64,000 nt of DNA from Microbotryum silenes-acaulis (Eukaryota; Basidiomycota; Microbotryomycetes; Microbotryales; Microbotryaceae). Each line of letters begins with the position of its first letter. The stretch's first letter is position 1. The stretch is from contig QPFY01000004.1 of assembly GCA_003665825.1 (NCBI GenBank), forward strand, positions 1,488,001 to 1,552,000. Reading direction: 5' to 3'. Under the pieces are notes generated by a model. The model was not told where the DNA came from, searched no databases, and saw only the letters and a program-made list of their open reading frames with translations. A program made the translations under genes and the position numbers. Positions 11,854-54,641 of this stretch are shown here, one piece after another.

Positions 11854-11873
11854 AAAAAAAAAAAAAAAACGAT

Positions 11874-11915: not shown

Positions 11916-11986
11916 AATCGCACTACCCTACCTCTGCAAACGTCAATACATCGAATACATCAACTGCTACACCAGCTATCGACCCG

Positions 11987-19412: not shown

Positions 19413-19425
19413 AAAAAAAAAAAAA

Positions 19426-26888: not shown

Positions 26889-27002
26889 AAAAAAAAAAAA
26901 AAAAATTGTTTCATCTTTCATCTTTCATCCCAATCGCACTACCCTACCTCTGCAAACGTCAATACATCGAATACATCAACTGCTACACCAGCTATCGACC
27001 CG

Positions 27003-27271
27003 ATGTCCGACCAGGCACCGCCTGATCCGGGCCGCGGCCCTCCGGAGCCGGCAGCGACGGGACAACCACGTGGTGACGCGGGGGCGGAAGCCGATGCCGC
27101 CGAGGGACCAGCGAACCCCGGCCTAGCGCTGTACCAGGAAAAGCGTGATGAAGAAAAGAAGAGGAAAGAGGATGTCGCGAGAATCCTGAAGATGATCAGT
27201 GTCGAAGATGGCACACGCCAGGGCACCCGCATCCTTGTGCTCAAAGACGCACTCGGCTTCGGCAAGGACCG
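27003..27271 (+). pseudogene. LINE B3 ORF1, N-terminal part cut by the inversion
   Basis: ATG 27003 starts the same protein as B1 ORF1; about 89 codons are kept, up to LGFGKDR. Beyond the breakpoint the frame runs into reversed phosphomannomutase sequence and soon stops. Confidence 0.9.
27270..27271. other. Inversion breakpoint 1 (LINE B3 ORF1 / PMM-1)
   Basis: The left side ends GGCAAGGACCG (element B). The right side starts CGACCAACGGGAGAGACG, the reverse complement of the PMM exon encoding VSPVGR. The two bases CG belong to both sides, so the join has 2-bp microhomology and no inserted bases. Confidence 0.88.
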
Positions 27272-28229
27272 ACCAACGGGAGAGACGCTGTGATGTACAT
27301 CCGCACCGAAAGTGAGTCTTAGAATGCCGCTATGTGATGCAAGAACATAGTCAGGAGCCTCGACGCACTTGATCATCCCATGCCGGAACTCGATGAAAGT
27401 TCCTCTACCGACGTCCGTGCCCGAGCAAAATCCATCAGTTCCCAAAACCTTGACACGAACCTCAGGCGTTATCATTGCTCACCGCTTGATAGGGATGTCC
27501 AAATCGGCAATATAATGCAAGATGAACCTGACCATTTTCTTGTACTTTTCCTCCCCGATGAAATTGATGAAGGACGCCGCTTTCAATTGCTTGCCGAGTT
27601 TGATCGCGATCAGACCGTTCTCGGCGAAGCAAAAGTCAAAGTCGTCTGAGATTAATGGGATGGAATGGGAGGAAGGAGAAAGGATCAGGTAAATCTCCCA
27701 GTCCAGAGGTGCAGGATCTAGATCAGGCTTGATCCTTGACGAAGAGAGCTTTCGCGGAGTCCGCCCTCTGTTTCCTACGCAGTGTCGCGGGCAGAACATA
27801 ACGACTCACTGTCCTGCCCATTCAACGCCAACTGTTCCGTAATCTTACGCAGATCCGAGCCTCCCACGAACCCAATGGCGGCTTTGGCACGGACTTGTTT
27901 GAGCACTTCGATGACTTCTGGGGAGACGCCCTGGATCGTGCACGCGACGAGGAGGGGCCCGGGGGTCAGTTGAAGGATACGATTTTTCAGCTTAGGTAGG
28001 AGGATGCTGATCGTCAACGAGGGCGGACTTACTCTTCGAGCAGGAGTAAGCGTATCATCGACATCTGCGCATCGGAAATTCCAAATTGAAGATGAGCCAC
28101 AAAGTCTTTCAATGAACATGGCGGGCGGTGCATCTCGGCACGAGGGCGACTCAGAGGGGTGCGTGACATACCGAACAAGCACACGATACCACCCTGAGGT
28201 CGTTCATTGATGGGGACGACGGGAGCCAT
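27270..28229 (-). pseudogene. SEC53: Phosphomannomutase PMM-1, 5' half separated by inversion
   Basis: Reading leftward from ATG at 28229: MAPVVPINERPQGGIVCLF, the HAD nucleophile region [78 protein letters not shown] and VSPVGR, where it is cut. Exon 1 (28172-28229, 58 nt) and exon 2 (28033-28064, 32 nt) have the same lengths and phases as in PMM-2. The enzyme converts mannose-6-P to mannose-1-P for GDP-mannose and glycosylation. The usual DVDGTLT is DVDD here. The 3' half is at 54640-55221 on the opposite strand, so no full protein can be made. Confidence 0.9.
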
Positions 28230-28549
28230 TGTTGGGTTCTCAGACAGGTGGTATTGGGGGAGAGAAGGTTAGAAGGACGAGGACTAAAAGCTGCTTTAGG
28301 GCCTGTGAGGTGGACGTTCGATTCGGGATCTATTTTGGGGGCCGCAATTCGGACGATCTCGAGAGAGCCCTTGGCGCGTCGCGACGGAATTCCGAACCCG
28401 GTACCGAGGACGCTCCCGGCTGACGTGTCCGTCCGACAAGGTACTTTTCCAGAACGACACAGCCTCATTCGACAGAAGGCTGGACAGACTAGTAGACACA
28501 AAAAAGAAATTGCACATGGTCGGTACCCTGAATTGAGATCCCCGATTCT
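28230..28549. other. Intergenic: PMM-1 upstream and ERG7 downstream region
   Basis: About 320 bp between the PMM-1 start and the ERG7 stop; both genes are on the minus strand. It would hold the PMM-1 promoter. No distinct site recognised. Confidence 0.5.
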
Positions 28550-31500
28550 TCACCACCCCTCTTTCCCCACGTACTTCCAAGCCTGTCCAAGAGCGTTGAT
28601 GGTCCAAGCGAATTTCTACTCGTCAAAGAACGACGCCAAGTCAGCCCTATGCCGCTGCATCAATTGAAGTACATGAGAGATGACATACGAAGTTCGGATA
28701 ACTGATCGCCGCGTTCTTATTGAAGACTGTGAGCGGGGTGGCGAAGCTCGCAATTAGCGCGGATACAAACCGATTACTGATCGGAGCATCTCCCCTGGGC
28801 TCACCTCCTTCGATCGCCTCTTGAGGCCATTCGCCCGAAGGCAATTGTCTCGACATGATGAGACGACATCCTCGGCGGATGGGTTCGGAATCGGGGTATT
28901 GCGCTGTAATAAGGCCGATCACAGCTGTGAAGAAGTCGATCTTCCAGGGGTCAGCTCCTGTCATCGCCCGTCGGATTCGTGAGTTCGACTCACCCCAAGC
29001 GGTTTGCGTCACTTGCGACTGCGCATGATGGACGTATTGCTCCGTCTCGCAGGACTAAGAGGAGCGCAGAGAAGGCAGAATGAGCTATACTGAACCGCTC
29101 TGGCGACCGCAGGGGTGCAATCTTACCTTGTAGCTCTCGCCCCACCCTCCATCCTCCATCTGTTTCGACAACAAGAACTCGCACGCCCTCTTGACGCTCT
29201 CCGAATTATCAAAATGTTCCCCGGCCAAAGAGAGGGACTCGATGGCGAACATCCCGGCGTAAGTGAAGCACTGGTAAGGCCACGCTCCATCGCATCAGTC
29301 TCTGTTTGACCTCCCGATTCGGTGTAGCACCGGCTTACGATCGCCCAAGAACCGTACCAACTCCCGTCGGGGCGTTGCTTCTTGTGGATGTACTCAATCG
29401 CTCGCTTCGAGACGCGTTCGATATCATCTGCTCGATAGTCGGGGTGTTTTCGCTTGAAGATTGTGAGAGCCGTCACACCTAAGTCATCGCCGAGCGTTCG
29501 TCAGCAACTGCTTCATCTGCACCACCTAAGAAAAGGACTTACAAGCCGTGGTGCATTCGGGGTATGAGTACTCGGTCATAATGTTCCCAAACACCTCCGC
29601 AGGGTTGAGCCACTCAAGCCAGTGCGGACCCCTAATCAATTCGTATGACGCAAAACCCCCATCGGCATTCTGCATCGTCAGAATTGTATCGATCGCATCG
29701 CACAACCGTCTTTTCGAAACGCGTTCCTTGACCCCGGGTAGACCTTGCAGCATTATGACGGTCTTCAACCCTTCGGCAGTACAGTCCGATACGGTGTAGC
29801 CTTGTTCTTTGGTAGAGAAAGGCCAGGCTCCCTTTGTGCGATGTCGATACGCTTTTTCGAAATGGGGTGGGTTCTCGCGGATTTGGGAATGGTCGAGCCA
29901 GTCGAGCATTTTTTCAAGACTCTTCTTGTTCGAGGGTTCGAGGGCGAGATCACTTTCGACGAGTGCTTGGCCGATGAAGGACGTGTCCCACAGTTGAGAG
30001 CCGTTTGTCCCTGCGGCAGCGACCCATGGAAAAGGTGAGTGTCAACTGGTCTGGAAGGTTACACCATGATTCAAGTGGGTAGACTTACCCGTCATCATCA
30101 TGCCCTGACTCGAAACCCACATAAAATCACGAATGCAAGATAGATGGGCCTTGAAGGCATCACTGTCCGGACCCTCCTCGAGCCACCGACAAATCATGTG
30201 CATCGCCTTCGATACCGGCCCCACGGATTGATAACTCGTATTGTCGTCCTCCATCTTGACGAGCTCGTACGCACGTGCGAGTCCTCGATTGCGAATGAAG
30301 GCAGGAGCGAACCGATCGTACACGTTGAGGATGGCAAAGAGACCGTTAGCCACGGCCGAATGAGGAGCGTAGAGGTCGACGGGGCAGACGTTGTTACGGC
30401 ATGAACTCCACTTGATTGACTCGTACGGCTCGACGTAAATCTCTTGTCGCAGGGAGAGGATAAGAGGGTCGAGATTGGCTTGGAAGTATCGACCGTTGAG
30501 GTAGCCCATGGGGATGTAGACGTTGCGGGTGTGGATCCACCAGCGATGAGGGTGGATGGGTAGGAATTCGGGCAGCAGCCATAGCTCGGTGGGGGTAGGG
30601 TTCAGTCCGGACCACGAGTGAACGTTGAGGATCGCCAGCCAGAATTTGCCCCATCTTTGAAATGCCCCGAGTCAGCAGAGATGTACGAGAAAGAGCCTTG
30701 TCACCGCTGAGACTTACGATGGGATCCCAGTGCAGCCACCTGTGACCGCAAGGTTTGATCAGCGACCAGATTGACGCGGCGACAACGGCGAGCTGCAAAC
30801 AACGGACCTAGATGATGCAATGTCGCTCTTGCCCTGATCATCATGGGCTCTTCGGCATCGACACCGAGCAAACGCAGGGTGACATAGTTGAGACCTGTCC
30901 CGAAGACGCTTGACTGCGCTTCGATGTGTCTGCGGTGTGGGGAAGGAGGCGGGGTCAAAATCTGCCGCTAGCTCGGCGATTTGGATCTGTCTTTATGAGC
31001 TTACATCCCCCAGCCCTCGTCCCCTGGTCCATTCGTTCGTTGAACATTGGAAAGATATCTGGGAGTAAAGCACAGCGCAGGATGAGCCCTGTGTGAACCG
31101 AAGAGTACGATGACGGAGCCATTTTTGCTCACCTGGCGATCTCGATTTTCCATTCCTCGGGTATGGGGGTCTTGGTGACATACATGGCGATGACAATACC
31201 GGGTAGGAGGAACAGGGGACCTATTTGGGCAATAGCGAGAAGTGAGTGCCAGTGCGGAAAGCCAAGTGAGCTGATACGTGCGACCAACTGACCGCCGTAC
31301 TGCAAGCGCCCCACCCCATACGGACACGTGGAATCGATCAGAAGGTCAGCCAACGGAGAGACCGCCAACGAAGGAACGACACGTACCTCTCCACTCCAAT
31401 GGCCATCGCTAGCCTGAATGCGCTTGTAGAACTCGAAGCCATTCTGTGCAGCCTTGTAAGGGTTGCCCCTGGGCTGCTCGAGTGGTGGCTGAGGTGCAGG

Positions 31501-31731
31501 CACGTCCAGCCCGAGCCAGTACTTTGTCTCGTCGTTCTGCTCGGCCGCGAGTTGCTCGGTCGGTCGTGGACCCCACACAGCCTCGTAGACAGCACTACTA
31601 CGCGAGTCTTGAGGTCGATCGTAATGCCATACGTGGCGGTCTTGGGAGCTGTCCAAGCGCCATCGAGATGGGTCGGTCGCACCGAGTGGGCCCGCTCGAG
31701 GTCGCTCCGTCTTGGCGCGATCAGTTGCCAT
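28550..31731 (-). CDS. ERG7: Lanosterol synthase (2,3-oxidosqualene cyclase)
   Basis: ATG at 31731, stop at 28550-28552, about a dozen exons. Reading order: [27 protein letters not shown], a 7-nt microexon (31293-31299) that completes [38 protein letters not shown], the membrane-edge block [16 protein letters not shown], the catalytic motif DCTAEGLK (general acid Asp), and QW-type repeats [33 protein letters not shown] and [11 protein letters not shown]. It ends [19 protein letters not shown]. It cyclises oxidosqualene to lanosterol in ergosterol synthesis at ER/lipid-particle membranes. The boundaries checked (31387-31731; 31133-31220; 31005-31058) are all GT-AG. All family blocks are present and in frame, so the gene looks intact. 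Confidence 0.93.
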
Positions 31732-32103
31732 TGTTCAGGGGGTGAGGGGCGGAAAGGGGGAAGGGGAAAGAGACGCGAGCGTATGTGGAGCCAAGGCGAC
31801 CGGGTCGTAATAAGAAGCAGTTAGCAACAGCAGGGCGTGCGCGACCCTTTCAACTCGGCGCTAGACTCGCTCTTACGTGCTCTTATTAGCTCGCTCTTAC
31901 GTGCTCTTACTAGCTCTGACTCGCGGCGCGTATTTGGCAAGTTCCTCCCGGCGCGCGTCGAATTCGCCGTTTCGCTGTGCTCGGGCTCTGCGGAACTCTT
32001 TCGGACTGACTTCTCCACATCAAGCGACCCGCATCCGCAGAACTACTCATCGCTGCCAATCTCTTGATTCCAAACGCGTGGTCCAGCTCACAATTGGCCC
32101 AGC
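31732..32103. promoter_or_regulatory. Divergent promoter region ERG7 / ARP9-like
   Basis: 372 bp between two divergent start codons. It contains a direct repeat of CTCTTACGTGCTCTTA-type units (about 31870-31915) that could bind a shared regulator. No TATA box is obvious. Confidence 0.55.
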
Positions 32104-33883
32104 ATGGCACGCGACGAGATGCTCGTGATCCTCGACGTGTCGACGACCGTCATACGCGCGGGAGTGGGAGTACACGAGATCATCAGGGCGCCCACGGCGG
32201 TCAGTTGGTCGATAGAGTTCATATGCTGCTCTCTTGATCTCGTCATGTGCTGAGCTCGCTTGCTCTCGCGTCTCACGCTACAGGAGGTCTCGACCCGTGT
32301 CGGCAAGCGGCCTAGCAACACCACCGCCTCCAACGGCTCCACCCCGACACCACAACTCAACGACTACCTCGTGGGGAATGCACTGCTTCAAGCTGAGCAA
32401 TCGGGAGAATCGCTCGAGATCGTCCACCCCTTCCAGAACGGGCCGAGGGGTTTCCAGGTCGTCGACTGGCTCGCCACAGAAGCCCTGTTGTGCGTGGGCA
32501 GTCACTCCAGTGCTTTGAAATGTACAATACTCATCGTTCGCCCCTTTTCTACAACAGCCGCTACATCTTCCACACCGCGCTCGCCCTGGTCCGACCACCA
32601 TTGGCACACCCGTGTCTGCTCTCGATCCCGCCCCACCTCAACCCCGTCGTCGTCGACCACTTCCACGCCCTCCTCTTTGAGCGCCTTCTCATCCCGCAAC
32701 TCCTCGTCGCCACCCGCCCCTTCTTCGCCGCCGCAGCAGCCGGCGTTCTCTCCGCCGCGATCGTCGACATTGGCGCTCGAGGCGACGGGCTCGACATCTC
32801 GATCGTGCACGAGAGTCAAGTCGTCGAAGCCGCGACTTTGACCCTCCCTCTCGACGAAGGCGTCTTGGACGATTGGGCTTGCTTGTTGCTCTTGCAGGAG
32901 GACCCCACCTTGCCGAGCCAGATCGTGCCCGCCGATCAGAGCGGGAATGCAGGCGCTCTTGTCCAGGCCCTGAGGCGCATCGTCGAGCTGCTCAAGGCCA
33001 AGAACGTGATTGGGTTTGCCCCCACCGCGATTGGCAATGCTAGCTCAACCACCGTTGAGGAGAACGAGGGCGAGTTCGACGTTGCCAAGGCCATCGTCGA
33101 AGGTAAAGTCGACAAGATTGTCGGCAAGAAGAAGGCGAACGCGCAGGACGAAGAAGCGATTGGCGATGTCATCGAACTACCGAGCCCTTTGGATGCGGAA
33201 AAGACGATCAAGGTTGGCCCTGCACGGAGAAGGTACTTCGATCCCCTCTTTGCCCCGCAGTTGCTCCAGCAGTTGAGACCGTCGGCTTCACCGGAGGCGG
33301 CCTTGCTCACTTTGACCGAGTACGAAGGGAGGGAAGTGCTGCATACGGGGATACAGGAGGCGATCGGACTTGTGATTAATCAGGTCGAGGATGTCGAGCA
33401 ACGACGACTGATATGGGAGTCCATCGTCATCGTCTCGGTTGGGAAGCTCGCGACGAATAAGAGTAAGCTTTGATACTCTTCCGCCATTTCAACGAGAGCA
33501 GATTGACTGATTCACTTCCTGCCCAATTCCCTGCAGCCCTCGGTGCTGCATTAATACCCCAACTCGAACCTTACGTTATCGATCCTGACTCGGGTTCGGA
33601 ATCGCAACCCAAGATCGTTAAGTATGCGCGCACGCCCGACTACTTCTCAGAGTTTAAGGAACGGTCCGGCGAATTGGCCGTTTACCTCGGGGGTTGCATC
33701 ATGGCCAAAATCCTGATCTCGGATCTTCAGTCGCGCTTGTTCATGGTCAGTGCTGCCCTTACCCAGTTTTTGCATGGGCCGCTTTGACTGACATTCTACA
33801 TCATGGCATACCTCACACAGTCCAAAGTGGATTACACCAACAAGGGTCCGGCGTTCTACCGCCAGCTCGAAAAGACCATGTGA
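32104..33883 (+). CDS. ARP9: Actin-related protein, Arp9-like (SWI/SNF-RSC subunit)
   Basis: Exons by GT-AG: 32104-32199, 32284-32489, 32558-33462, 33537-33745 and 33821-33883. The start MARDEMLVILDVSTTVIRAGVG is an actin-fold phosphate-1 strand. Later blocks are RYIFHTALALVRPPLAHP, AAIVDIGARGDGLDIS (phosphate-2 loop, changed from canonical actin), TLGAALIPQLEPYV, ARTPDYFSEFKE, YLGGCIMAKI and SKVDYTNKGPAFYRQLEKTM. The last four blocks are the pattern of Arp9 rather than of actin or Arp4. Degenerate nucleotide loops fit a structural chromatin-remodelling subunit. Arp7 or another divergent Arp is the alternative. It converges on ETP1 with 76 bp between stops. Confidence 0.75.
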
Positions 33884-33959
33884 AACAGCTAGACTCAAGG
33901 GGAATTGTAATTGCAGGAATGACATGTTGGAACACGAAACTGTAAAAATATCAATTGGT

Positions 33960-36526
33960 TTACTTCTTTTTCCTCCTCTGTGTCGAACTGGGTGTCGAAG
34001 GGGCTAACGTCGGAGCAATGATCGTCCCTCCCACCGCTTCTGCCGCCCCACCCTGAGTCTCGATCTGATCCCTCGCTGAAAGCGCAAACATGACATCCCT
34101 CATCTGTTCCCTCAAATCATCGACCTCAGCCCTGACTTGCACCGTCTCCGCCTCCCTTTTGGCGACTTCGGATCTCAAATGCCCCAAATTCTCCGTCAAC
34201 GACTTGGTCACGGCCTTCTCCGACTCCAATTCCTTCTCCAACTGTTTCCGCATCTTGGTCCATTCGACCTTCTCCTTCTTCCTCCTCGATTCATCCTCCC
34301 CCACCTGTTTTTGCATCGCCTCGAATTTCACCTTCCAAGCGCGACTCGTTTCCTCCTCCCTCGCCTCAAAATCTTTGACCCGCTTGACTAATTCGTTCCT
34401 TTCCCCAACCCACCCTTCACGTTCCCTCTCAAGTCCCTCCCGTTTCTTCCTCAACTGCGCAATCTCGTCCTTATCCCTCGCCATCTCCTCCTCATAATAC
34501 CCTCGTTGGGACTCCAATTGACTCGTCATCAGATTCGCATACTCGACCCCCATCGCCTCCAACTTATCCTGCGAAGCCTCGGTACTTCGATCAGGTCCAC
34601 CTGTACCCCCTCCTCCGCCACCCGAAGTCGAATTCGACCTCGCGCGTTGCTTGTGCTCCAGATTCGCCTCCGTCGATCGTCCATTGTTGCCAAACATGGA
34701 AGGCAGTTCGACGAGTTTGCCGTCCGTGCGCGAACGGATCAGACGATGAACGTATTCGTCGTCGGCATAACTCCACACGCGGCCAGTCTCGATCTCGAGC
34801 GAGTACCTGTGCCCGCTTTCTTCGAAATGAGAGTGCGCGTGACCGCCTTGGTATCGCCCACTGTAGAGAGTGCTCGCTGTTAATAGAAGTCACTCGTGAA
34901 GTTCAGGTAGAGTGCGACGTACCACCCGACGTTGCCACAGATGACGCAGATCCAAAGGTTCGCCGGCGATTGGCACACCGTGCAGAGAGAAGGTGGAGGC
35001 GCCGTATTGGTCCCTCGTCGATTGCGAAGATTCGTCTGTCGACAAATCGGGCACCTAGGAATGCACGATACCCACTCATCAGTGATCACCAACGAAGTCA
35101 TTTGATCGCGGGGTCTCCATCGGGCTCACCTCGAATCGCCCCACTTAAGCAAACACTCGCAATGCGCATCATGAGAACAGAGCTGAGAGATGAGACCGCT
35201 GACGTTGGCGTCGAGGCGTTCGAGACAGATGGGGCACGTCGGTAGCTCGACCTGATCGTTCGTATCCCCGTCGAGGTTCGAAGATGGGTAAGGGAACGTG
35301 AACGGGGGTGTCGTCGAGGTCTTGAGCTGGATGCTCGAGATGGGCACGACGTGACACAGTTCGGAGTCTTTGGTGTCGTGGTAGGGGCGTCCGTTGTACA
35401 TGGTACGGAACTCGGACGCATCGCTCGCTGTAGTTATAGCGGTCAGAGACCAAAGGATCAGCATTCTCGTTCCTTGAGCTGCAACAACGGCCTTCACGTA
35501 CCATCTCGAAAGCGAATGAGGACCAGAGTTCGGTTAGGGGTCGAGTCTCTGCACACCCGACCGGGCCGTGAGAGAAGCCGTTAGCGCTGAACCACGGAAG
35601 CGCTCTGAATTTGACACTCTGACCAAGCTCCAAAGCATACGCGAAGCCCACCTCAACACCCTCAGATGCAAGACTGAGTCCAACGCCGGCGAAATGAAGG
35701 TCAACAGTGCCGCCGCCGTAACGATCCCAGGGACCGAGACGAGCCCCACTACAGTCCCAGCATCATCCTGCACTGCCTTGCGCTTCTCCTTTTCTGAACT
35801 TTCGCCTGTGACGCCACCTTCGCGATAGAGATGGATTGTGCCCCAGTACAGATCGGTCGTGCCTGATTTCTCGGGGGGTCGGATCGACGGAGTTCCGGTT
35901 GAAGTGGTTGGTGATTTAGGATCTCCTGATGATCTAGACGAGCGAGTGCGTACAAGAGGGGAGCCCGGGATAGACAGGTGAAGAGAGTTGCTCCCCGCTG
36001 GACTGAGGGCAAGATTCTCGATCAACGGTAGAGGCGGGGACATGGACGGATTGTTCGGGGACGAGGACGAGGCGAGTGGGGCGTATGACATGGGCGTAGG
36101 GTGATCGACGCAATCGATCGAGATGGGGCCGAAACGAAAGTCGAGAGACGCCTTTTGAGTCGCCTGGGATGGTGTGAAGAGGTCGGCTGTAGCGATCAAA
36201 GGCGGGGCGACCGGTCCAGTTGACTCGGACCACACCCCACTCGAGGCGGTCGCACTCGTAGGCGGTCGACGTGGCGGACCCAGCGTCGGTGAAGCAATCG
36301 GAGCACTCGAAGTGGTCTGTAGCTTCCTACTGATGGGGAAGTGGCGCCACAGGCTTCCTGAGGGGAGGACGAGCTTGCGGTGCGAAGTGAGCAAGTCGTG
36401 GTCGAGCGCCGAGGGAAGCCGCGTACGCGTGTTCGGGTACAGTGGCGAGGGCTCGAACGTCGTCGAGGTGTGGTCGTACAGCTCGATTACGACGCTATAT
36501 CTCCGTTCAGGTGCGGGCACGGGCAT
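33960..36526 (-). CDS. ETP1: BRAP2/Etp1-type RING and UBP zinc-finger protein
   Basis: Stop TAA at 33960-33962; I chose ATG 36526, which begins MPVPAPERRYSVVIELYDHT. Domain order fits BRCA1-associated protein 2 and yeast Etp1: an RRM-like fold (GTIHLYREGG, VVGLVSVPGIVTAAALL, LVLIRFRD, ASEFRTMYNGR, CHVV), a RING (CPICLERLD, CSHDAHCECLLKWGDSRCPIC), a UBP-type finger (LCTVCQSPANLWICVICGN, GCGRYQGGHAHSHF, SGHRYSLE), then TGRVWSYADDEYVHRLIRS and a coiled coil to a basic tail QRRKKK. An intron splits the GCGRY cysteine codon. A 150-residue Ser/Pro-rich insert sits ahead of the RRM. The family acts as cytoplasmic ubiquitin ligases or adaptors; yeast Etp1 links to ethanol tolerance. Confidence 0.86.
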
Positions 36527-36919
36527 CCATGCGATGCAGAGGCGCTGTGGCCGAGAGAGGGACGAGGATCGGATGACGGTCGAGGAAGCTGGCAAGGCAC
36601 TCCAAGCCAACTTTGGGGCTCCACTTTTGACGCCGACCACTTTCGCAGACTTTCGCCGTCGGTGCCGTCAGCGACCGAGTCATGCGCTCGGGCTGCCAGC
36701 ATGAAGATAAGAGGTAAGTAGTAGATGTCTGGACTAGAAGGCAAGGTAAAGACGCGATGGGTTCTGCTATTGGCACAAGATGATTACTCGAATACGCTAC
36801 ACTGGTTTCAAACGCCGTACGTCTACAGGGTATGACGACAAACTCGGTGAAGATTGTTTCTACTAGTAGGCACAACTTCAGGACGAGAACACTGCTGAGA
36901 GCCTCTTCTCCTTTCCCCT
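36527..36919. other. Intergenic between MADS gene and ETP1
   Basis: About 390 bp between two minus-strand genes. It would hold the ETP1 promoter and MADS-gene terminator. Nothing distinctive seen. Confidence 0.5.
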
Positions 36920-40159: not shown

Positions 40160-40164
40160 TTCAT

Positions 40165-43330: not shown

Positions 43331-43334
43331 GAAA

Positions 43335-43392
43335 CCTTTTTCCTTTTTTTGGGGGGGGGGGGTGGGGGGGGGGGGTGGGGGGGGGGGTGGGG
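43335..43392. repeat. Poly(G)/T tract next to a LINE tail
   Basis: Reading on the minus strand, LINE scrap C3 ends GTTCTAC and is followed by several C-runs separated by single A and then an A-run. This is where the other copies have poly(A). It may be an unusual tail or an expanded repeat. Confidence 0.8.
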
Positions 43393-43483
43393 GTAGAACT
43401 TGTTCATCATATTTTGCCCCCGGTTCATGTTCCCCCTCTTTGGCCTACGGAAACACTAGATGGAAGTCGACGATGATAACACA
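43393..43483 (-). mobile_element. LINE scrap C3: last ~90 bp of family C
   Basis: On the minus strand it reads GTGTTATCATCGTCGACTTC through to GATGAACAAGTTCTAC, the same as 24291-24377 of C1 with a few differences. It begins immediately after the tail of scrap C2. Confidence 0.88.
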
Positions 43484-43545
43484 TTTTTTTTTCTTTGGTA
43501 GAACTTGTTCATCATTGCCCTAGGTTCATGTTCCCCCTATTCGGG
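43484..43545 (-). mobile_element. LINE scrap C2: last ~48 bp of family C
   Basis: The minus strand matches the final part of C1 (AGGGGGAACATG...GATGAACAAGTTCTAC) and then has tail CAAAG plus an A-run (43484-43497). It lies between scrap B4 and scrap C3, all in the same orientation. Confidence 0.82.
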
Positions 43546-43671
43546 TTTTTATTTTTATTTTTTATGAAACTCATCGCTAATCTGCAAGACGAGAAAACCC
43601 CTACGGAACTAAAGGAGATGCTGCCCAGTATGCACGATGATGACCACAACCGCCGCTCGATGCGTTGTATG
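43546..43671 (-). mobile_element. LINE scrap B4: last ~108 bp of family B
   Basis: The minus strand begins right after the B3 tail, follows the last 108 bp of B1 (TACAACGCATCGAGCGGCGG to GAGTTTCAT), then has an A-rich tail interrupted by T (43546-43563). Confidence 0.9.
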
Positions 43672-43683
43672 TTTTTTTTTTTT

Positions 43684-45074
43684 GTATGAAACTCATCGCT
43701 AATTTGCAACACGAGAAAACCCCCTACGGAACTAAAGGAGATGCTGCCCAGTATGCACGATGATGACCACAACCGCCGCTCGATGCGTTGTAACTAGCAG
43801 AACAGACCAACCCGATACATCCGAGTTCAAGTCCCCCCCACCCACGGTTGCTTCCTCCCAGAGACGAATGAAAGGAAGATTGAAGATAATACACAATGAA
43901 TCGGGAAACGATAGAGGAATTGTTGGTGGTGGTACATGTGTTGTACAGGCGAATCCGATCATAGTTGTACAGTTGAACCTTCTTCGATCTTTTGACTTCA
44001 GACCCACCCTGAGACCGCCCTACTCCTTGAAGCCCCTTAATTCTTTGACACGCGTCGAACAAGGCCTCCGATGGCACAAACATCCCGCTCAATCCGAATG
44101 ATTCACGTGGTCCAAAGGGGGGATGTAACCCCCTGCGACCGCAGCAATCACCTACCCCTTGTACCCAACTGCGCTGGATCTGCACCGCGGATTCCAAACC
44201 CCTTTTCGGTTACCAAAGTCGGCCCCCCCCTCGCGACCACACGACCCCAGATCACCCCCATTTCAATGACTGCAACTGCGAAACAGGCCTACTTCGCACA
44301 AAAACACACAATCCCGAGATTTCCGGGGAAAGTCACGGAGCATGTGACAGTCCATTGGACACGCCTCGGTCTGCAGCGCGGGCGGGTGGCCGACAACACC
44401 GGCGCGCGGCTGGAGACCAGAGGCGGGGTATACCTTCCGCAGGGGCCTCGCTTCCCTGCGGCGTACTCCCAATCTCGGAACGCACACTCGAGTCCCGTTG
44501 TACGTGCAGGTGGTTCCCAATCACCGCAGATACTGGGGAAAGAAGGAGCATGAGGCCCACGACGGTGATGTCATTGTGTGGGACCTCGCTCGAGTGTGGA
44601 TGTGTATGGCGGTTCGGTACCCGAGTCACCCGCCGCGCGGCCGCGACTCCGAGCGAGCAGCAAAGCAAGGAGAGGCGAGCCACGCAGGCAGTTTGTGCCG
44701 GCCTTGAACAGGAGATCACGGAGTCGCTCGACCGAAAGAGAAGACAGACCCGGCCCTTGAGAGGAGTGGAAAACTCACGGCGTAGTCCAGGAGAGGGCCA
44801 AGGGGATCCGCTTTCGCTGTGTGTCATCGTGATGTGGCAGAAGCTCGAACCAAGGGCGACAATGCCCGCCGGCGCAAAGAACCCGAGGCTCCTGGGGAGT
44901 ACGGAAGCCTATGAGGAGGAATGGCAAAAAGAGCGAGAGAAAACAGGTTCAGTATTTTGGCGTTTTGGGGAGACATTGGAGAGATTGAGAAAGAGGTAAA
45001 GGGGACTTGTGATTTTTATTTTTTTTGGTTTTTGGTTTGGGTTTTGCTTGGGTAGGGAGGGAGCGCCGTCTACT
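43684..45074 (-). other. 3' UTR of LINE B3
   Basis: Near-identical reverse-strand copy of the B1 and B2 3' UTRs; no additional gene. The A-rich stretch after the ORF2 stop matches B2 better than B1. Confidence 0.75.
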
Positions 45075-45319
45075 TCATCGTGCCAATCTGAGCTCCAACC
45101 TCTCCTTCAGTCCCGCCATCTCCTTGTCCATGCTCGACATCGCTCTGGCGTGGCGATGGAGATCCCAGCGTCGGTTGCTGAGAGTGTCGAGCGCCAGCGC
45201 AATGAAGGCGCGGATTGGGCGCTTTTTCGACGTCGGAAGGCGAGCGCGCAGTCGAGGGAGGCCGTGCTCGATCTGAAGTGCCGTGTAGTCGAGGTCGAGG
45301 ATCGACACGACCCCCAGCG
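45075..45319 (-). pseudogene. LINE B3 ORF2, last C-terminal piece
   Basis: Encodes the final part of ORF2 (SILDLDYTALQIEHGLPRL to LELRLAR, stop 45075-45077), cut off from the rest by the solo LTR at 45320. Confidence 0.88.
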
Positions 45320-45598
45320 TGTCGCAGAAATGTTCTCGAGTGGTAACTGATGATGACCACGACTCAGTCCAATGAACAGGGACGAGAACAGAGTGGCCAG
45401 AGACTAAGGGACAGACTCGCGGAAGGCTAGAAAGTGAAGCGTAAAGCTAATAAGGAGAGAGATTAGAGACTAGTAAAGTAGGGAGATTGAGCGACTAAGG
45501 AGTGAATGACACGCCGCTAGGCTCAATCCCAAGTACCATAATAGGAACAATAATCAGATGAAGGACGGGACAACCCATATGACCATATACGAATGACA
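45320..45598. mobile_element. Solo LTR in LINE B3
   Basis: 279 bp beginning TGTCGCAGAAATG and ending CGAATGACA (TG...CA), flanked by a 5-bp direct repeat CAGCG (45315-45319 and 45599-45603). Removing it with one repeat restores the B ORF2 sequence. No coding capacity. The minus-strand end TGTCATTCGTATATG recalls the start of the nearby Copia LTR (TGTCATTTGATATG), so it may come from a relative; orientation is not settled. Confidence 0.82.
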
Positions 45599-46668
45599 CA
45601 GCGCGTCGCAGAGAATGGACCTAGCTGCTTGCCAAAACTGAGAAGAGTCAGGGCAATCATGCCAAAAGTGAGTAAAGTCATCCTCCACCCCTGCCAGGCT
45701 GCATGCCTGCACGAGGCAGCAGGCTGAGTCGCCATGCCGCTGCACAAACTGGCGCTTCCGCGTTGGCGTGAAGTGGTACGCCAGCTTGAAGTGCACCTCG
45801 CGCTCGCGGGCCGTGGCGGGCCCGGTGTTGAACCACACCCAGAAGAGTCGCCTTTCTTTGGGTGTGGCGAGTGATCCAGGGCGTTGTGTGTGGTCGAAAC
45901 GTCGATGGTTGATGACGCGTCGAAGTCGCGCAATGGTGTAAGGTCTGTCCAAGCTCAACATTCTCCACTGATCAGCACGCAAGGGGGCGGAAGGGAGGGG
46001 AAGTTTTTGATCAGGCATGCCGACTGGAGTCGCTCTGGGCAAGATGTGCTCGAGGGGACCGCCGGGCCGGGCTCCAGGTGCTCCAACGACACGAATGACG
46101 GGTGGTCGACGTGCGAGGACGGGAACAGGAGGCGGAAGCGGCGGGATGAAGCGATCGCCTGCGACCTGGATCCACGCCTGGACTTGATCGCGCTTCCATT
46201 GCCAAGGTTGGACAGCTCCGAGCCGTCGCCTTGGGGATGCTTCTCAGGGGTCCAGGGCACCGTTGGAGCTGCGGGGTATTGGGCTCGAGCATAGATGTCA
46301 GCGATGGTGCGTTCGAAACTGAAAAGCTTCGCCAAACGCTTATCCTGCTCCGAGAACGGCCGCGAGTCATGCAGACCAGGTTGGAGGGGAGAAAGAGAAA
46401 GAAAATTGGAGACCGAAAGTTTGGCAGGATCGACGACGGCAGGGTAGCGTTCAGCGACCGAGAGCACCGCTCGCCAGCGGGGATGTAGCTCCCGGGGTGC
46501 GTCAGCGTTCCTCCACGTCCACAGATCCGCAGCAAAGTCAAAGGTCGGAAGCGCTCGCCGGATGGAACTCCGAGCCAGATCGCTCCAAATCGCAGTTGAC
46601 CCGCCGGCCAGCACGTCCCAGATCCGTACCGAGACTGAATCCACCACATCTTGGATGCTCACGACGCT
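45599..46668 (-). pseudogene. LINE B3 ORF2, middle piece
   Basis: The piece between the Copia insertion and the solo LTR encodes VVSIQDVVDSVSVRIWDVL through to the Cys/His motif (CCLVQAC, HFWHDC). Against B1 it has at least one further indel, near 46205-46235, where the frame changes (LSNLGNGSAIKS). Confidence 0.85.
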
Positions 46669-46915
46669 TGTCATTTGATATGTGTCTGTGCCTGTGGTAT
46701 CTGCGCGGATGCGCGTGCGTTTAGTCATTAGTCACTTTGGTATTGGAGTTTGATCTGTTTAAGTTAGGGAGCGCACGGGGCTTTCTTCCCGCGCGGCTGT
46801 TTACTCTTGGTAGCTTTCTCATCACTCGCTCTACATTGTGGTCCTGACTTCTCGGCGTCGTGCACCCTCACCTATCGGAAGGCTTTACTTCCGCGCTCGC
46901 ATCTTTTCTGCGATA
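46669..46915 (+). repeat. 5' LTR of the Copia element
   Basis: 247 bp, TGTCATTTGATATG to TTTTCTGCGATA. The right end is TA rather than the usual CA. Confidence 0.93.
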
Positions 46916-46927
46916 GGTTATGAGTCC
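46916..46927 (+). promoter_or_regulatory. Putative primer binding site (half-tRNA initiator Met)
   Basis: GGTTATGAGTCC directly follows the 5' LTR and is complementary, with one mismatch, to the anticodon arm of initiator tRNA-Met (GGGCTCATAACC). Drosophila copia and yeast Ty5 are primed by this internal tRNA region. The gag ATG (46920) lies inside the site. Confidence 0.65.
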
Positions 46928-47795
46928 AACGGGTAGCGTAGGAGGCCCGGGTCAGCAAAGCGATTCACATCGCACCACCAACATCGGAATGGACACCGAA
47001 ACACACTCCACTGAAACGAGTGAACGTGGATTACATGTCCCAATTCTTCGGGCATCCAACTACATGGATTGGCGTCGACGTCTTATTGGTCGTCTTGGGT
47101 CCAAGGATTTGCATCTTTGCGCATCGAGGCGGATGAGCCCGGCTGCGGAGGCTGTTCTTCAGGCCGCAATCGACGATCGATCGCGTGGCTTCCACTCGCC
47201 ACTCGAGCGGCTCGACTTCGCAGCTATGGACGCGAAGATCGCCAAGGAGCTAAAGAAGGAGGTTCGAACTCAGGCTGAAATCATTCAGTTTCTCGACGAG
47301 GCCAATCTTCGCCTGGTCAGGGGTTGTTACACGTCTTACGACATACTCGACTCGCTGAACACGTTCTACCTCGGCACGATGAGCGCTCAGATCGGCGCCT
47401 TGACGACTGAGCTCTATGCGCGCAAGTTCTCGTCTGGCGATCGCGGGCAGTTGCTTCACCACCTGATCACCATCCAAGGAATTCTACAAGATCTTGAGGC
47501 GTGTGGCTCCGGGATGCCACCAGCTCAACAGTCGACGCTGATGCTCGATTCCGTCTTCGACCCGCAACACGAGTCGTTCACCAGCTCACTGCGTCGACCT
47601 CTGGCTCTTCCTTCGGAGATTGTTTCAGAGGCACGGTCGTATCAGTTCAAAATCTCGCTGGCAAGTCGCATCAACGGTCTATCTGCCACGACTTCCGGAC
47701 GCGCCATTGCTGAGTCGCCTGTTCCCGCGCTCGTTGCGCAAGGCGAATCGCAAAAGAGGTCACAAGAAAGGCAATACTCAACAGGTTTGGCTTGA
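46920..47795 (+). CDS. Copia gag-like protein (shortened)
   Basis: 291 residues from ATG 46920. The Copia-type gag core is visible: [18 protein letters not shown] near residue 40 and [51 protein letters not shown] in the middle. No CCHC knuckle and no protease DSG/DTG motif follow, although in Copia both should lie between gag and the integrase zinc domain. The stop at 47793-47795 is within sequence that continues as pol in the +1 frame. A cut-down gag could still be packaged by proteins from a complete relative. Confidence 0.7.
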
Positions 47796-49938
47796 CGGCT
47801 CTCTCGTCGCCGAAACTGTCAAGACGAAGGCCAAACAACCAAGTTACGTCTTCGATTTTGAGATTGTTTCTCCACCCTCGCCTGTGCTCGTCGCAGCTAC
47901 CCGTGCTTCCGTTGGAGCTTCGCTCATGGAATGGCATCGGAGCTTCGGACACATGGCACCGTCTTCAATTCTTCAACTCGTCAAATCCAAGGCTGTCGTT
48001 GGAATTCGTTTACTCGACAAGAAGATTGAAGACTGTGAGCCGTGCATCATCGCAAAGGCGCGCGCGGGCTCTCACAATCATGTCAGTCGAAAACCCGAAC
48101 ATGTTCTTCACGGTCGGTCTTTCAAGATCGTCGTCTCTTCCGATGTCACCTTCTCCGACAAGGCTCCTTCGATCGCGGACTCGGCTGTCGAGCCTCGCAT
48201 CTACGAAGTTGAACCTCTACAGGAACACGAGTTAGTCCACCCACTGCCGTTTCCTGGCTTGGAGCAGATTCCGGCTTTACGGCCTGCTCCCCTTCCTGAG
48301 GCAGGTTTGGCTTTTCAGCCTGCGCTCTTTCCCGAGGCAGATCCGGCTTTACGGCATGCGCTCGTACCCGAGGCAGAAGCTCCGGCTTTACGGCCTGCGC
48401 TCTTTCCCGAGGCGGTTCCGGCTTTACAGCCTGCGCTCGTACCCGAGCTTGGTCCGGCTTTTCGGCCAGCTCCCGCTCCTCTTCTTCGTTTCCAACATAT
48501 GGACGATGACGACGTTGCTCCTCCTCCTTTACCGGCTGTCGGTCCGTTGGCCGAAGACGCTGAAGTTGAAGAGGACCCGATCGATCATCGACGCGAGGAA
48601 GCTGTTGAGGCTATCGACAGTGACGATGACGACGGCCCTGCGGAACACGATCAACCATTACCTCCTGAGGATGGTTACGAGTATCGACCTTACCGTGTCG
48701 GCCGCAACCCTGGTGCGCTCGAGACCGTCGATGCAGGTAACATTTTACCGACTCGCCTGCGTGCTCAGCATCGTGCAGGCGCCCTTCGTGTCGTGTCTAC
48801 TCGCTCGGTCTACCGTCGTCCACCAGAGCTCATTGCTATGGTTTCGTCTCGTCACCCTCCGCTTCCCAAGATGTTCGCGGAAGATCGCGGCTATACGCGC
48901 TCCAATGTCGATGCTTGTCTCTACTTCAAGTATCATGGCAAGTCGTTCACGATCATCACTTTGTACGTTGATGATGGGCTTGCTGCATCGAACAACCAGG
49001 CTTTTCTGGACTCCGAGATTTCGGCTTTCGATGCGGTCTACAAGCTCAAGCGACTTGGCCCGGTCAAGACGTTTCTCGGTCTCGAGTTTCTTCGTACCAA
49101 GGATTTCATCTTCGTCCACCAATTAAAGTACATTCGAGGCTTACTCGAACACTACACCTTCGAAAGCAAGTCGAAGAAGCCGGTCGCGACTCCCATGGAG
49201 GATCGCGTCGTTTCGTCTTCTACTGCTCCGTTCTCCGACATTCTCGTCTACCAATCGGCTGTGGGGGCACTACAATATGCTGCGCAACGTGTTCGTCCCG
49301 ATATCGCGACTGCTGTTCGTGCGGTGGCGAAGTGCGTGGCTGCTCCAACCGAAGGAGACTGGATCTGCGTCAAGCGAATCTTTTGCTATCTTTCTGACAC
49401 CGTCGACTATAGGCTACTCTACCGCGTAGGCGGTTCTACCAACTTCGAGGTGTACAGTGATGCGTCGTTTGGTTGCGATCACGACAACGGCAGATCTGTG
49501 GGAGCGTATGTCGTTATTATGGCTGGCGCTGCCATTTCCTGGAAGTCGAAGCAACAAACGATGGTCGCTTCTTCTACAGCAGAGTCTGAGACTCTGGCTG
49601 CTTCAACTGCAGCAAAGGAGGCTATCGGTCTTCGCAACCTGGCGTCCGAACTTCGCATCAATCAAGGTCGATCTACTGTTCTGCATGAGGACAACCAACC
49701 TTGCATCGATTTGGCGAAGAATCCCGGAGCTCGAGGTCGTACTCGCCATTGGAATGTGCATCATTTCTATCTACGCGAACGAATCGAGGTTGGCGATATC
49801 GATCTCCGCTACTGTCCGACCGACCTGAACACGGCCGACATTTTGACAAAACCCCTATCCAAGCTCAAGTTCGCTACGCATCGCGAGAGACTCGGGATGG
49901 TCTCGCTGGCTACCTTGGCATGTGGGAGTGTCATTTGA
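47780..49938 (+). pseudogene. Copia pol, internally deleted but open
   Basis: The frame is open from before 47780 to 49938 without an ATG near its start. Kept: the integrase zinc domain ([26 protein letters not shown]), a piece of the integrase tail ([15 protein letters not shown]), a linker with 12-residue repeats, the RT C-terminal half ([40 protein letters not shown]) and RNase H ([45 protein letters not shown]). Missing: the integrase DDE core and the RT N-terminal half. At least two deletions kept the frame open. Confidence 0.82.
48271..48480 (+). repeat. About six tandem 36-bp repeats in Copia pol linker
   Basis: Units of about 12 residues, such as [12 protein letters not shown] and [12 protein letters not shown], repeat between the integrase remnant and the RT remnant. 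DNA copies differ by several substitutions each. Confidence 0.8.
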
Positions 49939-50175
49939 CATGTGTCTGTGCCTGTGGTATCTGCGCGGATGCGCGTGCGTTTAGTCATTAGTCACTTTGG
50001 TATTGGAGTTTGATCTGTTTAAGATAGGGAGCGCGCGGGGCTTTCTTCCCGCGCGGCTGTTTACTCTTGGTAGCTTTCTCATCACTCGCTCTACATTGTG
50101 GTCCTGACTTCTCGGCGTCGTGCACCCTCACCTATCGGAAGGCTTTATTTCCGCGCTCGCATCTTTTCTGCGATA
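49929..50175 (+). repeat. 3' LTR of the Copia element
   Basis: 247 bp; differs from the 5' LTR at four sites (for example TGACATG against TGATATG, AAGATAGG against AAGTTAGG). A short purine stretch GTGGGAG precedes it. Confidence 0.93.
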
Positions 50176-52908
50176 ACGCTGAGACCACCTCGCGCCCGTG
50201 CCGTGAAGACGACCAATTGCTTGTAGTCGCTGCGCCGCGGTCCTCCCTTCACAAAGTCGGAAAGCTTGCGCTCGATCGACTTGATCACGTCGGATGGCGG
50301 TACGTCGGCGGAGAGAGTGCAGCACCTTGGAGATGCCGTAGCGGTTGAGATAGAAAGCCCGGGTATGATGCGTCATCCATCGGTCGCGCACCGAGAGAAT
50401 CACTCGATCGACCCTTCGCTCAAGATCATGGAATCCCAGCCTGTTGTTGCCGTCAGGCGCAAACTGGAGACCGATCCAGGGAAGAGACTCGTCCGGTGCC
50501 ACGAACGACAGTTTGGACAAGTCCGCGCGATCCCACAACGTCGCGCCCAATGGCATCACCACGGTTTTGTCGGTGTTTAGACGGCCGTTCGTCGCGAGTC
50601 GCCAATCCCGAGCTAACGCCTCGAGCGAAGCAATAGCTTCCGGTCCAGCGACAGCGACGACGGCGTCATCCGCGAACGCCAGATTGGTAATGCATCGAGT
50701 CTGCGGACGAGAAGCCAGCTCCGGAAGAGTGAGGGTCAGCGCAATGTTGCGTCGACTGAGAGAATCAAGGAAGGGTTGGAATACCACATCCCAGACAGAA
50801 GAAGAGAGAGGATCGCCCTGGCCAAGACCGCACAGGAGTCGCACCGTCTCGGTAAGGAAACCGTTGACAATGTACCGCGCTGTGGACGTCTCGCCGTTGT
50901 AGAGCATCCGCAAGACGCGCTGGAAAGATTCCGGCGCGCCGAGAGCCTCAAACACCGCAAAGACCCAATCGTGCTCGACCATGTCGTAAGCCGAGCTCTG
51001 ATCCAGGGAGAGGAGCGCTGCTGTCGGGAACTCTGCCCCACGACCCCTAATCTCGTCGATCAGGAGCCTCAGATGCAAAGCCGCGTCCGCTGGTCTTCGC
51101 CCCTTGACGAACCCATGCTGTCCGGCCGGAAGAACATCGGGGAGGATCCGGTTCAGACGAGCCACATAGACCTTGGTGAAGATCTTGTAGTCGCATTCCC
51201 GCAAGGTGATCGGACGATACGATTTGAGGTCACACCGCGCTGCACCAGGTTTGTTGTGTTTGAACAAGAGGCGCACATTCGCCTGGCTCTGTTGTGGAGT
51301 AAGGGAGCCTCGAATAATCAGCTCGTTGTAGGCTCGAGTCAAGAGAGGGGCCCAAAGCAAGGGGCAGGCTCGATACATCTCATAGGGGACCCCTGAAGGA
51401 CCCGGAGATCGACCTTCGTGCGTGGTTCGAATCGCTGCGAGCACCTCGGCCTCGCTGATGGGCTCGGCAAGAATGTCGACGTGCGAATTCGAGAAGCGCC
51501 GAAGGAAGCGAGCGTCGGAAAGCGGGTCGTCACAAGGTCTTGCTGATCTGATGGGTCCCAAGAGCTCATCCCGCATCGTCACGACCTGTTCCGGATCCTT
51601 CGCTTCGACAAGGTAGTGCTGCTGGAAATGAGAATGGGTGTGCTCGAGCGCGCGCTCAATGTCAGTGGTGAGCTCGCCATCAGCGAGCCGGATACTCTGA
51701 AACTTCACATCCCGGGACCGAGCAGCCAGTTTGGCATGTACCGGACGACTGAGACGTTCCTCGGATGCAATCTCGGGCACGTGCGCCCTGATCCGGGACT
51801 GCCTTGCTCGCTCGTTCACAAGTTTGGTGAGAGCGTCGTGGGTGTTCGTCCAGTCGATGATGTCAAAGGGACTCAGCACCCGACGAGACTCAATGTCCTG
51901 CAGTCGAGATACCAGCATCATCTCGAGGGCGTTGCGCTCCCGATACAGACGCCGAGACAGCTCCAGAGCTTGGACCCGAGACTCCGAGAGTACGCGCTGA
52001 AGTTCGGCGACCGGATCCCCAGACGGTGCTTGCTCAAGGAGAGGAGTGACGAACTCCTTAAACTCGGCGTGTTTGAAGGTCGACGAGTTGATGCGGGTCA
52101 GAAAATGAGCCGCCTGGGGAAGGCAGAGCTCCGCTTCGACCTCGGCACCACTTGCGTGCAGCCTAAATGTGACCGTAACCGGTCGATGATCCGACATGGA
52201 TCGAGAGATATTGTACAGAGTGGAAGCAGAAACGATCCGTCGCTCGTGTCGCCGCTGCACCAGAACAAAGTCGATGCGCGCGCGCGAAATGAGCCGGCCG
52301 TCCTTGCTGAGATGCGGGCGCGTGGTCGCCGGCGACAGTGGGTGCATGAGCCAAATGGTATCCGTGTACGCCCCGTCAAGCCGAGACATAAGCGCGGGCC
52401 AGTGTTGGGTGTTCGGGCGGTCCACCTGTTGCGCTCGATCCACCGCGGGGATAGGGCAGTCGTTGAGATCGCCCGCGATGAACCGAATGTGAGAGGAGAC
52501 GGTCGCCCGAAAGTGAAGGGAGGTGAAGAAGAGGAGGCGCTCGGCGGGTTGAACCGGAGCGTAGATATTGTTGAGTTCGACGACGTCCGTCGAACCCCGC
52601 ACATCGAAGGTGGTCACGAGTAAGCGCCCGCCAAGAGACTGACGCGTGCGACGATGACCACCGAGAAGAGGAGAAGAGCTTGGAATCAAAGTGAGGCAGT
52701 GTTGAGAAAAGTAGGCCTCGTCCTGGTGGGACTGGGCGTACTCGTGGCGTATGTGAGATTGTCGTGATTTAGGAACATTGTGTTCCTGGAGAAGGATAGC
52801 AGAAGGGGGAGGTGTGAGCGAAGTGAAATACGAAAGAAGCAGACGACGTCGTTCAGGGGTATTGAAGCCCCTGTTGACGTTCCAGGTCATGATGATGAAC
52901 TCAATCAT
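50176..52908 (-). pseudogene. LINE B3 ORF2, N-terminal piece with shared frameshift, cut by Copia
   Basis: ATG at 52908 (overlapping the ORF1 stop as TAATG). Endonuclease and RT blocks are the same as in B1 and all catalytic residues are kept ([52 protein letters not shown]). The same two-base loss in KVLHSL(S) as in B1 shifts the frame at about 50308. The Copia insertion follows at 50176. Confidence 0.9.
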
Positions 52909-54641
52909 TACGATCGCGCCTTCGTTGCAGCAGCAGCTCCCCTGATGGACAACATAGGTCCGAATGTGGGTGAGGGGAGAGGGTCCGCGGCAGTCGATTC
53001 GTTCCAGTCCAATGTGCGCGCGACGCTGGTGAGACGCTGGATACGCTCGGACCGGCGAAGACCCTGGGAACTTCCATCGTCCACCTCCTGCTTGGGCTTG
53101 GGCTCGGGCTCGGGATCAAACACTGGACCTGGAGACGGCGAAGGCATCCAACCGGTCACAGACGGGGTGCGGTCCAACTCGGTGATCTCATCGTATAGAC
53201 CAGCATCCTGTTTGCGCTCGCGATCCGACACACGATTCATCCAGTCGTCGGGAAGGCCGTCCATATCCAGCTGATGGTGACTGGCCGATCGGGAGCGCGT
53301 CAGCTCAGGGGTATGCTCAGGAGTCGTCGAAACAATCTCAGGCACAGACCCCGTCTCGGCCGACTGCGATTCCCCTTCTTCCGCGTCACTCGTCTCCGTG
53401 TGTTCCCCCTGGTTCCCCTCCGCTCCGCGGTCCTGCAGATCCGACAGATCCGAAAGCTCCAGCGGCGGCACTTCCTGCTGTTGTTCCAGCTGTGCCTCGA
53501 CTACGCTCATCGCGTCCTCGTCGTCCTCGAGGGCCTGAGCGGGCTCCTCCTGCGCCTCCTCGGCTACGTCGCCGGCCAGACTTGCGAATGGGTTTGCGGC
53601 GACGATGAAACCGCGAGGGGCGGATGCTATGGGTGTAGAGCTTTGTGAACGAGTAGGGTAGACTCGTGGTGAGTTGTTAGTGTCCCTTGTGGGAGATGCG
53701 TTCTTCTTTGAACGCTTGGACGCGGCAGGAGACATTGGGGGAGAGGGAGAGGCTACATCACCTCTGCGTTGTTTTTGGGGGGTCGAGGTTTGCTCGATGT
53801 TGCTTTGGGGCTCGGCCTGGGGCCTTTGGTTGTTGTTGTTTTTCTGGGAGGCCTGCTGACGCTGGACCGGCTTTTGAACGCAGTTGTCGGAGTGGCCTAC
53901 AAAGCCGCATCGGCGGCACGAGGCTTCGGCCTCGTAGTCGTGGCGAAGGGGCGTGAGTGTTGCGAGTCGTCCCCGAAGGTCGATCCTCGTCGGTAGAACC
54001 TGCCGAAGTTGAGCACCGTTGTTCTTGAACAGGTCGTCGTCGTCGAACTGGACGATGGCCGCGTAGTTTCCTCGAGCGACGAGGTACGAGCCTTGAACGA
54101 CCGTTAGAGGCTGCTGGAGTTGGAGCAAGTCGCACTTGTGGCCGTCCCCGGTAAGCTTGGCGACGACGCCTTGCAGTTTGTTCCAGAGGTCGTCGTTCGT
54201 GTATTCGGCCTCAGGACTGATAATGAAACGCAGTTCGACGACGTTTTTGACGAACGCCAAGCGCTTGCGGACTTGGGCAAAGGAGCGTTTCCACTCGATC
54301 TTGGTCGCCGCGTCGTGGACTTGGTCGAGCGCCGCTGCGCTAGCGCAGCGCACCACGAACTTGAACCGGGTGTTACCGCTTTGGATGATCGATTCCGGTG
54401 CGACTCCATGGATGATTGGAGCGTATTTCTGGAGCTCGGGCGGGAGGACAACTCCTGCGGGCAGGTTAAAACACAACGACGTGTCGGGCGACAGGGTACG
54501 GAGCACCTTCGAGTACAACTCGGACTTCTCGCGTTCGGTGGCCACGCCGGTGTGTTCGAACGTGACTTCCAGAACGGCACCAGACGTGTCGGTAATTGGT
54601 TTCGTTGCATTGAGTGCGCTGAAGCGCAGGGAGGTGGCCCG
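52908..54641 (-). pseudogene. LINE B3 ORF1, part downstream of the breakpoint
   Basis: Open in the B1 ORF1 frame from the breakpoint (ATSLRFSALNATKP) through the zinc knuckle CRRCGFVGHSDNC to the stop at 52908. It lacks the ~89 N-terminal codons at 27003-27271. Few substitutions separate it from B1. Confidence 0.9.
54640..54641. other. Inversion breakpoint 2 (LINE B3 ORF1 / PMM-1)
   Basis: The left side is element B reversed (GCAGGGAGGTGGCCCG). The right side is PMM exon CGTAACGCTTC, encoding R-N-A-S. CG is shared, as at 27270-27271. Flipping the interval restores both GACCG-GGCCACC (element B) and GTTGGT-CGTAACGC (PMM). Confidence 0.88.

Follow-up and report, generated by a model that had tools for sequence, protein, structure and literature searches.

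Balanced inversions with two break points, sealed by non-homologous end joining, are a known kind of chromosomal rearrangement, as are inversions by recombination between inverted copies of a transposon, and twin priming leaves the inverted and the direct part of a LINE adjacent to each other. The break points of inversions are often obscured, whether by repeats or by decay. The inversion analysed here, situated in a stretch of 64,000 nucleotides of the Microbotryum silenes-acaulis genome at positions 1,488,001 to 1,552,000 of contig C4 (hereafter the window), resembles the first kind in its two reciprocal joins with few shared bases, the lack of long homology and the reversal of the segment; here the event is very clean, neither join having lost or gained a base, and it is resolved to the base because each break cut something that has intact copies. 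With transposon-mediated inversions it has in common a LINE array at one end, but its break points lie outside shared repeats, and with a twin-primed LINE two parts in opposite orientation, but 27 kb with several genes lie between them.

A preliminary description had proposed that the inversion splits a phosphomannomutase gene (PMM-1) and a LINE (B3), with ORF1 of B3 joined to reversed PMM-1 on the left and the reversed rest of B3 joined to the rest of PMM-1 on the right. Both breaks are indeed read in the window, which is free of N and gap letters:

27270 to 27271, no strand: left inversion junction, CG common to LINE B3 and PMM-1
54640 to 54641, no strand: right inversion junction, CG common to LINE B3 and PMM-1
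27271 to 54640, no strand: inverted block of 27,370 bp (27270-54641 or 27272-54639 are equally valid ends)

The left join, ...GGCAAGGAC-CG(27270-27271)-ACCAACGGGAG, leads from LINE ORF1 into reversed PMM-1, and the right join, ...GGAGGTGGCC-CG(54640-54641)-TAACGCTTCG, from the reversed LINE into PMM-1, the two joins being reciprocal and both found in the sequence. CG is the whole overlap at each of them; zero bases were lost or gained as judged by the LINE and PMM-2 yardsticks, and a flip of 27271-54640 explains the bases at both ends of the block.

On the side of the LINE, the break can be measured against an unbroken copy of the same array, B1, identified with the pieces of B3 by self-comparison of the window:

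11893 to 19425, plus strand: LINE B1, unbroken, same array, yardstick for the break
26909 to 27271, plus strand: 5' piece of LINE B3, element bases 1-363 with the start of ORF1, 100% identical to B1
50176 to 54641, minus strand: inverted piece of LINE B3, element bases 362-4827, comprising the remainder of ORF1 plus ORF2 as far as the copia insertion, 99.04% identical to B1
43672 to 46668, minus strand: 3' part of LINE B3, past the copia insertion, including a 266-bp extra stretch
43547 to 43669, minus strand: 3' tail of a B-type LINE
43393 to 43483, minus strand: 3' tail of a C-type LINE (another LINE family)

The left piece of B3 corresponds to positions 11893-12255 of B1 (363 bp) and the right piece to positions 12254-16719 (4466 bp), the two overlapping by element bases 362-363, which are exactly the CG. 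Throughout the assembly searched (29.85 Mb in 88 contigs), the first 1001 bases of the LINE are present at at least 37 places, 33 of which, some being one place repeated on redundant contigs, run unbroken through bases 362-363; among the other four, two start further in (at 655 and 718) and the two of B3 itself are the only ones that end there. A 30-base probe for the unbroken site likewise found 33 places, 31 exactly and two with one mismatch. ORF1 of B3 would now stop after 96 codons as compared to 666 in B1, while the inverted piece retains a match to RVT_1 and, just under the Pfam cut-off, one to Exo_endo_phos. The 4466-bp right piece shows 43 differences from B1, 22 of which are absent from seven other copies compared, and the 3' part shows 38. 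The extra stretch at 45333-45598, absent from B1 and B2, has a 19-bp repeat of LINE sequence on its flanks and is perhaps a small inserted element.

For the gene, a tandem paralogue serves the same purpose, with the exons of PMM-1 placed by hand against it:

27270 to 28229, minus strand: 5' half of PMM-1, six exons (28229-28172, 28064-28033, 27930-27810, 27645-27483, 27404-27369 and 27287-27270), by PMM-2 alignment, positions 3-107 of PF03332
54640 to 55220, plus strand: 3' half of PMM-1, exons 54640-54650 (remainder of the broken exon), 54714-54750, 54841-54941 and 55025-55220, by PMM-2 alignment, positions 108-220 of PF03332
55979 to 57512, plus strand: PMM-2, tandem paralogue left intact, 258 aa in nine exons, the reference against which the break is measured

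Scanned separately against the Pfam profile PF03332, the halves of PMM-1 cover positions 3-107 and then 108-220, and against the solved phosphomannomutase chain 5ue7_A of the PDB residues 12-137 and then 138-251. The break is located in the sixth exon within the stretch VSPxGRNAS, between G and R, where PMM-2 reads unbroken CCCATCGGC-CG-TAATGC and PMM-1 CCCGTTGGT-CG and CG-TAACGC. All introns of PMM-1 have GT/AG edges, and both halves are open, with no stop or frame error. PMM-2, 758 bp downstream of PMM-1, shares with it 117 of 142 aligned amino-acid residues in the 5' half and 95 of 114 in the 3' half; dN and dS (NG86) amount to 0.107 and 1.17 in the 5' half and 0.100 and 1.13 in the 3' half, whereby a dS above 1 is an uncertain estimate. 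PMM-1 and PMM-2 are old duplicates under constraint, which is visible in both halves of PMM-1. PMM-1 differs by an exon 4 shorter by two residues, in frame, and by the motif DVDDT, which is DVDGT in PMM-2 and DVDET in the solved phosphomannomutase 6i5x. As PMM-1 is constrained and carries no stop or frame error, its break is probably recent in comparison with the duplication. In its present state, the 5' half would encode 142 phosphomannomutase codons followed by 110 codons of antisense LINE before a stop. Neither a second copy of either PMM-1 half nor, with up to three mismatches allowed, an unflipped PMM junction was found in the assembly, and an unflipped haplotype was equally looked for in it and not found.

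Flipping the block makes LINE B3 and PMM-1 both whole, the halves being complementary at both ancestral loci. That a flip would restore both loci with only CG in common had been part of the preliminary description, and it holds to the base by the B1 match and the PF03332 halves: the pieces of B3 meet at element bases 362-363, the halves of PMM-1 at profile positions 107/108, and two independent yardsticks, the 33 LINE places on the one hand and PMM-2 with the solved phosphomannomutase sequences on the other, put the halves at the same junctions. The LINE pieces found in the block (the rest of B3, the B-type tail and the C-type tail) are on the minus strand, those left of the block on the plus strand; flipped back, they join the plus-strand array with all members in one direction, and PMM-1 and PMM-2 follow each other head-to-tail. 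A single flip is thus indicated alike by the element, the gene and the direction of the array.

The block carries, besides, a set of genes and a second transposable element:

28650 to 31734, minus strand: oxidosqualene cyclase (ERG7-like), squalene-hopene cyclase domains PF13243/PF13249 in three ORFs, one below the Pfam cut-off
32490 to 33473, plus strand: actin-like exon (actin-related; ARP9 is the name given in the preliminary description), PF00022, E 8e-6, below the Pfam cut-off
33963 to 36667, minus strand: ETP1/BRAP2-like gene, matches to BRAP2, RING and zf-UBP
38220 to 38690, minus strand: MADS-box (SRF/MCM1-type) exons, ends approximate, SRF-TF, E 1.1e-19
46669 to 50175, plus strand: LTR element of copia type inserted in B3, with LTRs at 46669-46915 and 49929-50175

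Domains thus back the ERG7-like, ETP1-like and MADS genes in the cargo as first listed, with the actin-like match remaining below the cut-off; that list was incomplete, the block also holding most of B3, the copia-type element and the tail of another LINE family. The MADS match was obtained on four short pieces spliced by eye, and the unspliced ORF gave no Pfam match. The ORF at 31132-31734 of the ERG7-like stretch had no Pfam match, and several other single ORFs scanned in the block matched no Pfam family, as expected of intron-rich genes. The copia-type element has LTRs of 247 bp that are 98.4% alike and a 5-bp target duplication.

With complementary halves, a common CG, no longer homology and pieces of matching orientation at both loci, the sequence is by far most probably read as a real inversion, balanced, with two breaks and a length of about 27,370 bp, that was sealed by end joining. 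Before the flip, one LINE array would have extended from near 5 kb through B3 and the trailing tails, followed by the MADS, ETP1-like, actin-like and ERG7-like genes and then by the tandem of PMM-1 and PMM-2. A double-strand break at a CG in ORF1 of B3 and another at a CG in the sixth exon of PMM-1, presumably present at the same time, would have freed the 27.4-kb segment, which would have been rejoined in reverse by end joining with a net loss and gain of zero. The loss of PMM-1 may have been tolerated because PMM-2 remained.

As to the route of repair, the preliminary description had taken the two-base overlap to fit end joining rather than recombination between long repeats. The second part stands: no long inverted repeat common to both break points is present, and as no homology extends beyond the CG across the joins, recombination between repeats is excluded. 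The first part does not stand as proof. Homology at the joins is as little (2 bp) as end joining asks; however, a share of 0.167 (~17%) of random break pairs in the window have at least 2 bp in common (up to 200,000 pairs, those less than 500 bp apart dropped). Since two shared bases are common by chance, the overlap is weak evidence for the route, only the absence of long homology is telling, and on the basis of the overlap end joining is not separable from other clean rejoining. Site-specific recombination, with a recombinase crossing over at the two bases of the palindromic CG, was set aside, as the bases flanking the two CGs are dissimilar (GGAC-CG-GGCC and TGGT-CG-TAAC).

Four other explanations were weighed. 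That the inversion exists in the assembled sequence alone is improbable, yet of these four it is the least so: LINE B is a high-copy repeat with almost identical copies, so that the linkage through B3, with the LINE at dozens of near-identical places, leans on long reads, and the assembly is incompletely purged, some small contigs duplicating places on other contigs. In cross-contig pairs, four of five at the LINE 5' side differ by 3-17 gap letters without a mismatch and one is identical, and one of two at the 3' side has two mismatches (range 0-2); the small contigs C29, C52, C53, C63 and C70, where flanks of LINE copies repeat those elsewhere, are probably redundant. Misassembled inversions, though, usually end in inverted repeats. 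Here the joins connect unrelated sequences with 2 bp in common, both coding and exactly reciprocal, in a window free of gap letters. Somewhat less probable still is that the event is real but of a more complex nature, such as a translocation or a series of steps, and shows in the assembly as one inversion. Distant linkage does cross about 11 kb of LINE and copia on the right and the 22-kb array on the left, but gene order, gene orientation and the orientation of the tails fit one flip, which brings PMM-1 and PMM-2 back in tandem.

The LINE machinery itself might have caused the rearrangement, either by twin priming at PMM-1 or by target-primed reverse transcription there. Many places of the family match at 99-100%, which suggests recent activity, and one LINE B copy on contig C2 (L063 3200-8050) has a 5' inversion in the shape of twin priming, its 5' 3.5 kb being inverted directly against its last 1380 bp. 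The pieces of the C2 copy adjoin, however, whereas those of B3 lie 27 kb apart with genes between them, which sets a twin-primed insertion aside; the split of B3 is also unlike that of LINE A copies on contigs C1 and C13, which are split on one strand with overlaps of 6 and 5 bp, as insertions leave. The joins are furthermore inside ORF1 and not at the element ends, and PMM-1 shows neither the element-end poly-A nor the target duplication of a plain LINE insertion, which was rejected on the same grounds. Many copies of the family adjoin tRNA genes, and a single tRNA gene was found in the window, at 4.9 kb. Taken together, an origin in the LINE machinery has very little probability. Ectopic recombination between inverted LINE copies of the array has next to none and is refuted for the present break points: the block is flanked by LINE pairs in inverted orientation, up to 4466 bp in length at 99% identity, but it was the flip that created the 4466-bp pair, and PMM-1, which would have to be one of the partners, has no repeat in common with the LINE and 2 bp at the joins.

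The setting of the LINEs is probably a more unusual feature than the balanced inversion itself. In the window, where the LINEs of the array follow one another head-to-tail, a tRNA gene stands at the head:

4900 to 5015, minus strand: tRNA-Pro(AGG), intron of 44 nt, heading the LINE array, ARAGORN with introns

The call relies on one program and on the appearance of the gene, as neither ARAGORN without introns nor Rfam reported it at 4900-5015. The array starts roughly 70-100 bp from it, the 5' end of LINE A being only approximate. Outside the window, ARAGORN with introns found a tRNA gene at 12 of 29 fetched LINE B 5'-end loci and none at the remaining 17; the 29 derive from 32 LINE B 5' places, three of which yielded no locus, and several repeat one place. 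All 12 tRNA genes are upstream of the LINE on the opposite strand, at a distance of 58-91 bp from the tRNA 5' end in nine cases (the 5' heptad repeat counted in) and of 158-268 bp in three, with tails of other LINEs to be seen in the gap. Without introns, ARAGORN recovered eight of these 12 loci; Rfam, run on 20 of the 29 loci, agrees in ten of these 12 cases and additionally finds a U2 snRNA next to one copy, with L014 and L025, both in the scan, below the Rfam score. Among the tRNA genes listed (46, from 63 of 669 candidates scored, introns ignored), eight of the 33 unbroken LINE places have one within 2.5 kb upstream, six of them within 270 bp. These LINE-tRNA figures are raw counts. The pattern resembles that of the TRE5 elements of Dictyostelium, which are reportedly tRNA-targeting LINEs.

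Several further observations touch on these elements. A tRNA gene was seen at five of 30 LINE B 3'-end loci (L037, L045, L054, L057 and L058), each time on the upstream side and the opposite strand. LINE family A yielded 33 rows, and in two of them a listed tRNA gene is found on the upstream side at distances of 100 and 63 bp (C16:445410-446410 with the tRNA at C16:446510, and C2:522031-522885, a 5'-truncated copy, with the tRNA at C2:522948), and more than one LINE family may share the tRNA target. The 5' ends of LINE B carry variable runs of the heptad TTTCATC (L005, L007, L008, L010-L013, L027, and 11869-11915 in the window), and the start apparently consists of CA repeats in LINE A and of TTCAC repeats in another family, which gives the impression that each LINE family has a 5' simple repeat of its own. 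At C7:1150974-1206582, LINE B copies follow one another at a spacing of 17,253-17,265 bp, as if a LINE-bearing unit had been tandemly duplicated, and at L004/L033 (contig C9) a stretch of some 80 bp or longer, next to a tRNA-like start, is repeated on both sides of one LINE B and looks like a long target duplication. Sixteen bases at 43304-43319 equal the start of a U2 snRNA gene lying between two LINE B copies on contig C20; these are the only two exact places in the assembly, and the match may be due to chance.

A wider reading, which we regard as unlikely, is that LINEs targeting the upstream side of tRNA genes build break-prone head-to-tail arrays of which the inversion would be one product. 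It would further imply, no more probably, that B3 was broken through the array itself, by the element endonuclease or by replication stalled near the Pol III gene, and not by chance. If true, such LINE arrays would be a standing source of clean inversions in the genome.

The balanced inversion is an ordinary kind of event in a new and cleanly resolved case. Both of its break points are readable to the base owing to the intact counterparts, the 33 LINE places and the PMM paralogue, so that the locus cleanly documents, from nature, the rejoining of a eukaryotic chromosome and provides a simple marker of two PCRs with which the inversion can be followed across strains. The case further exemplifies the loss of an apparent housekeeping gene by rearrangement, with the tandem copy kept.
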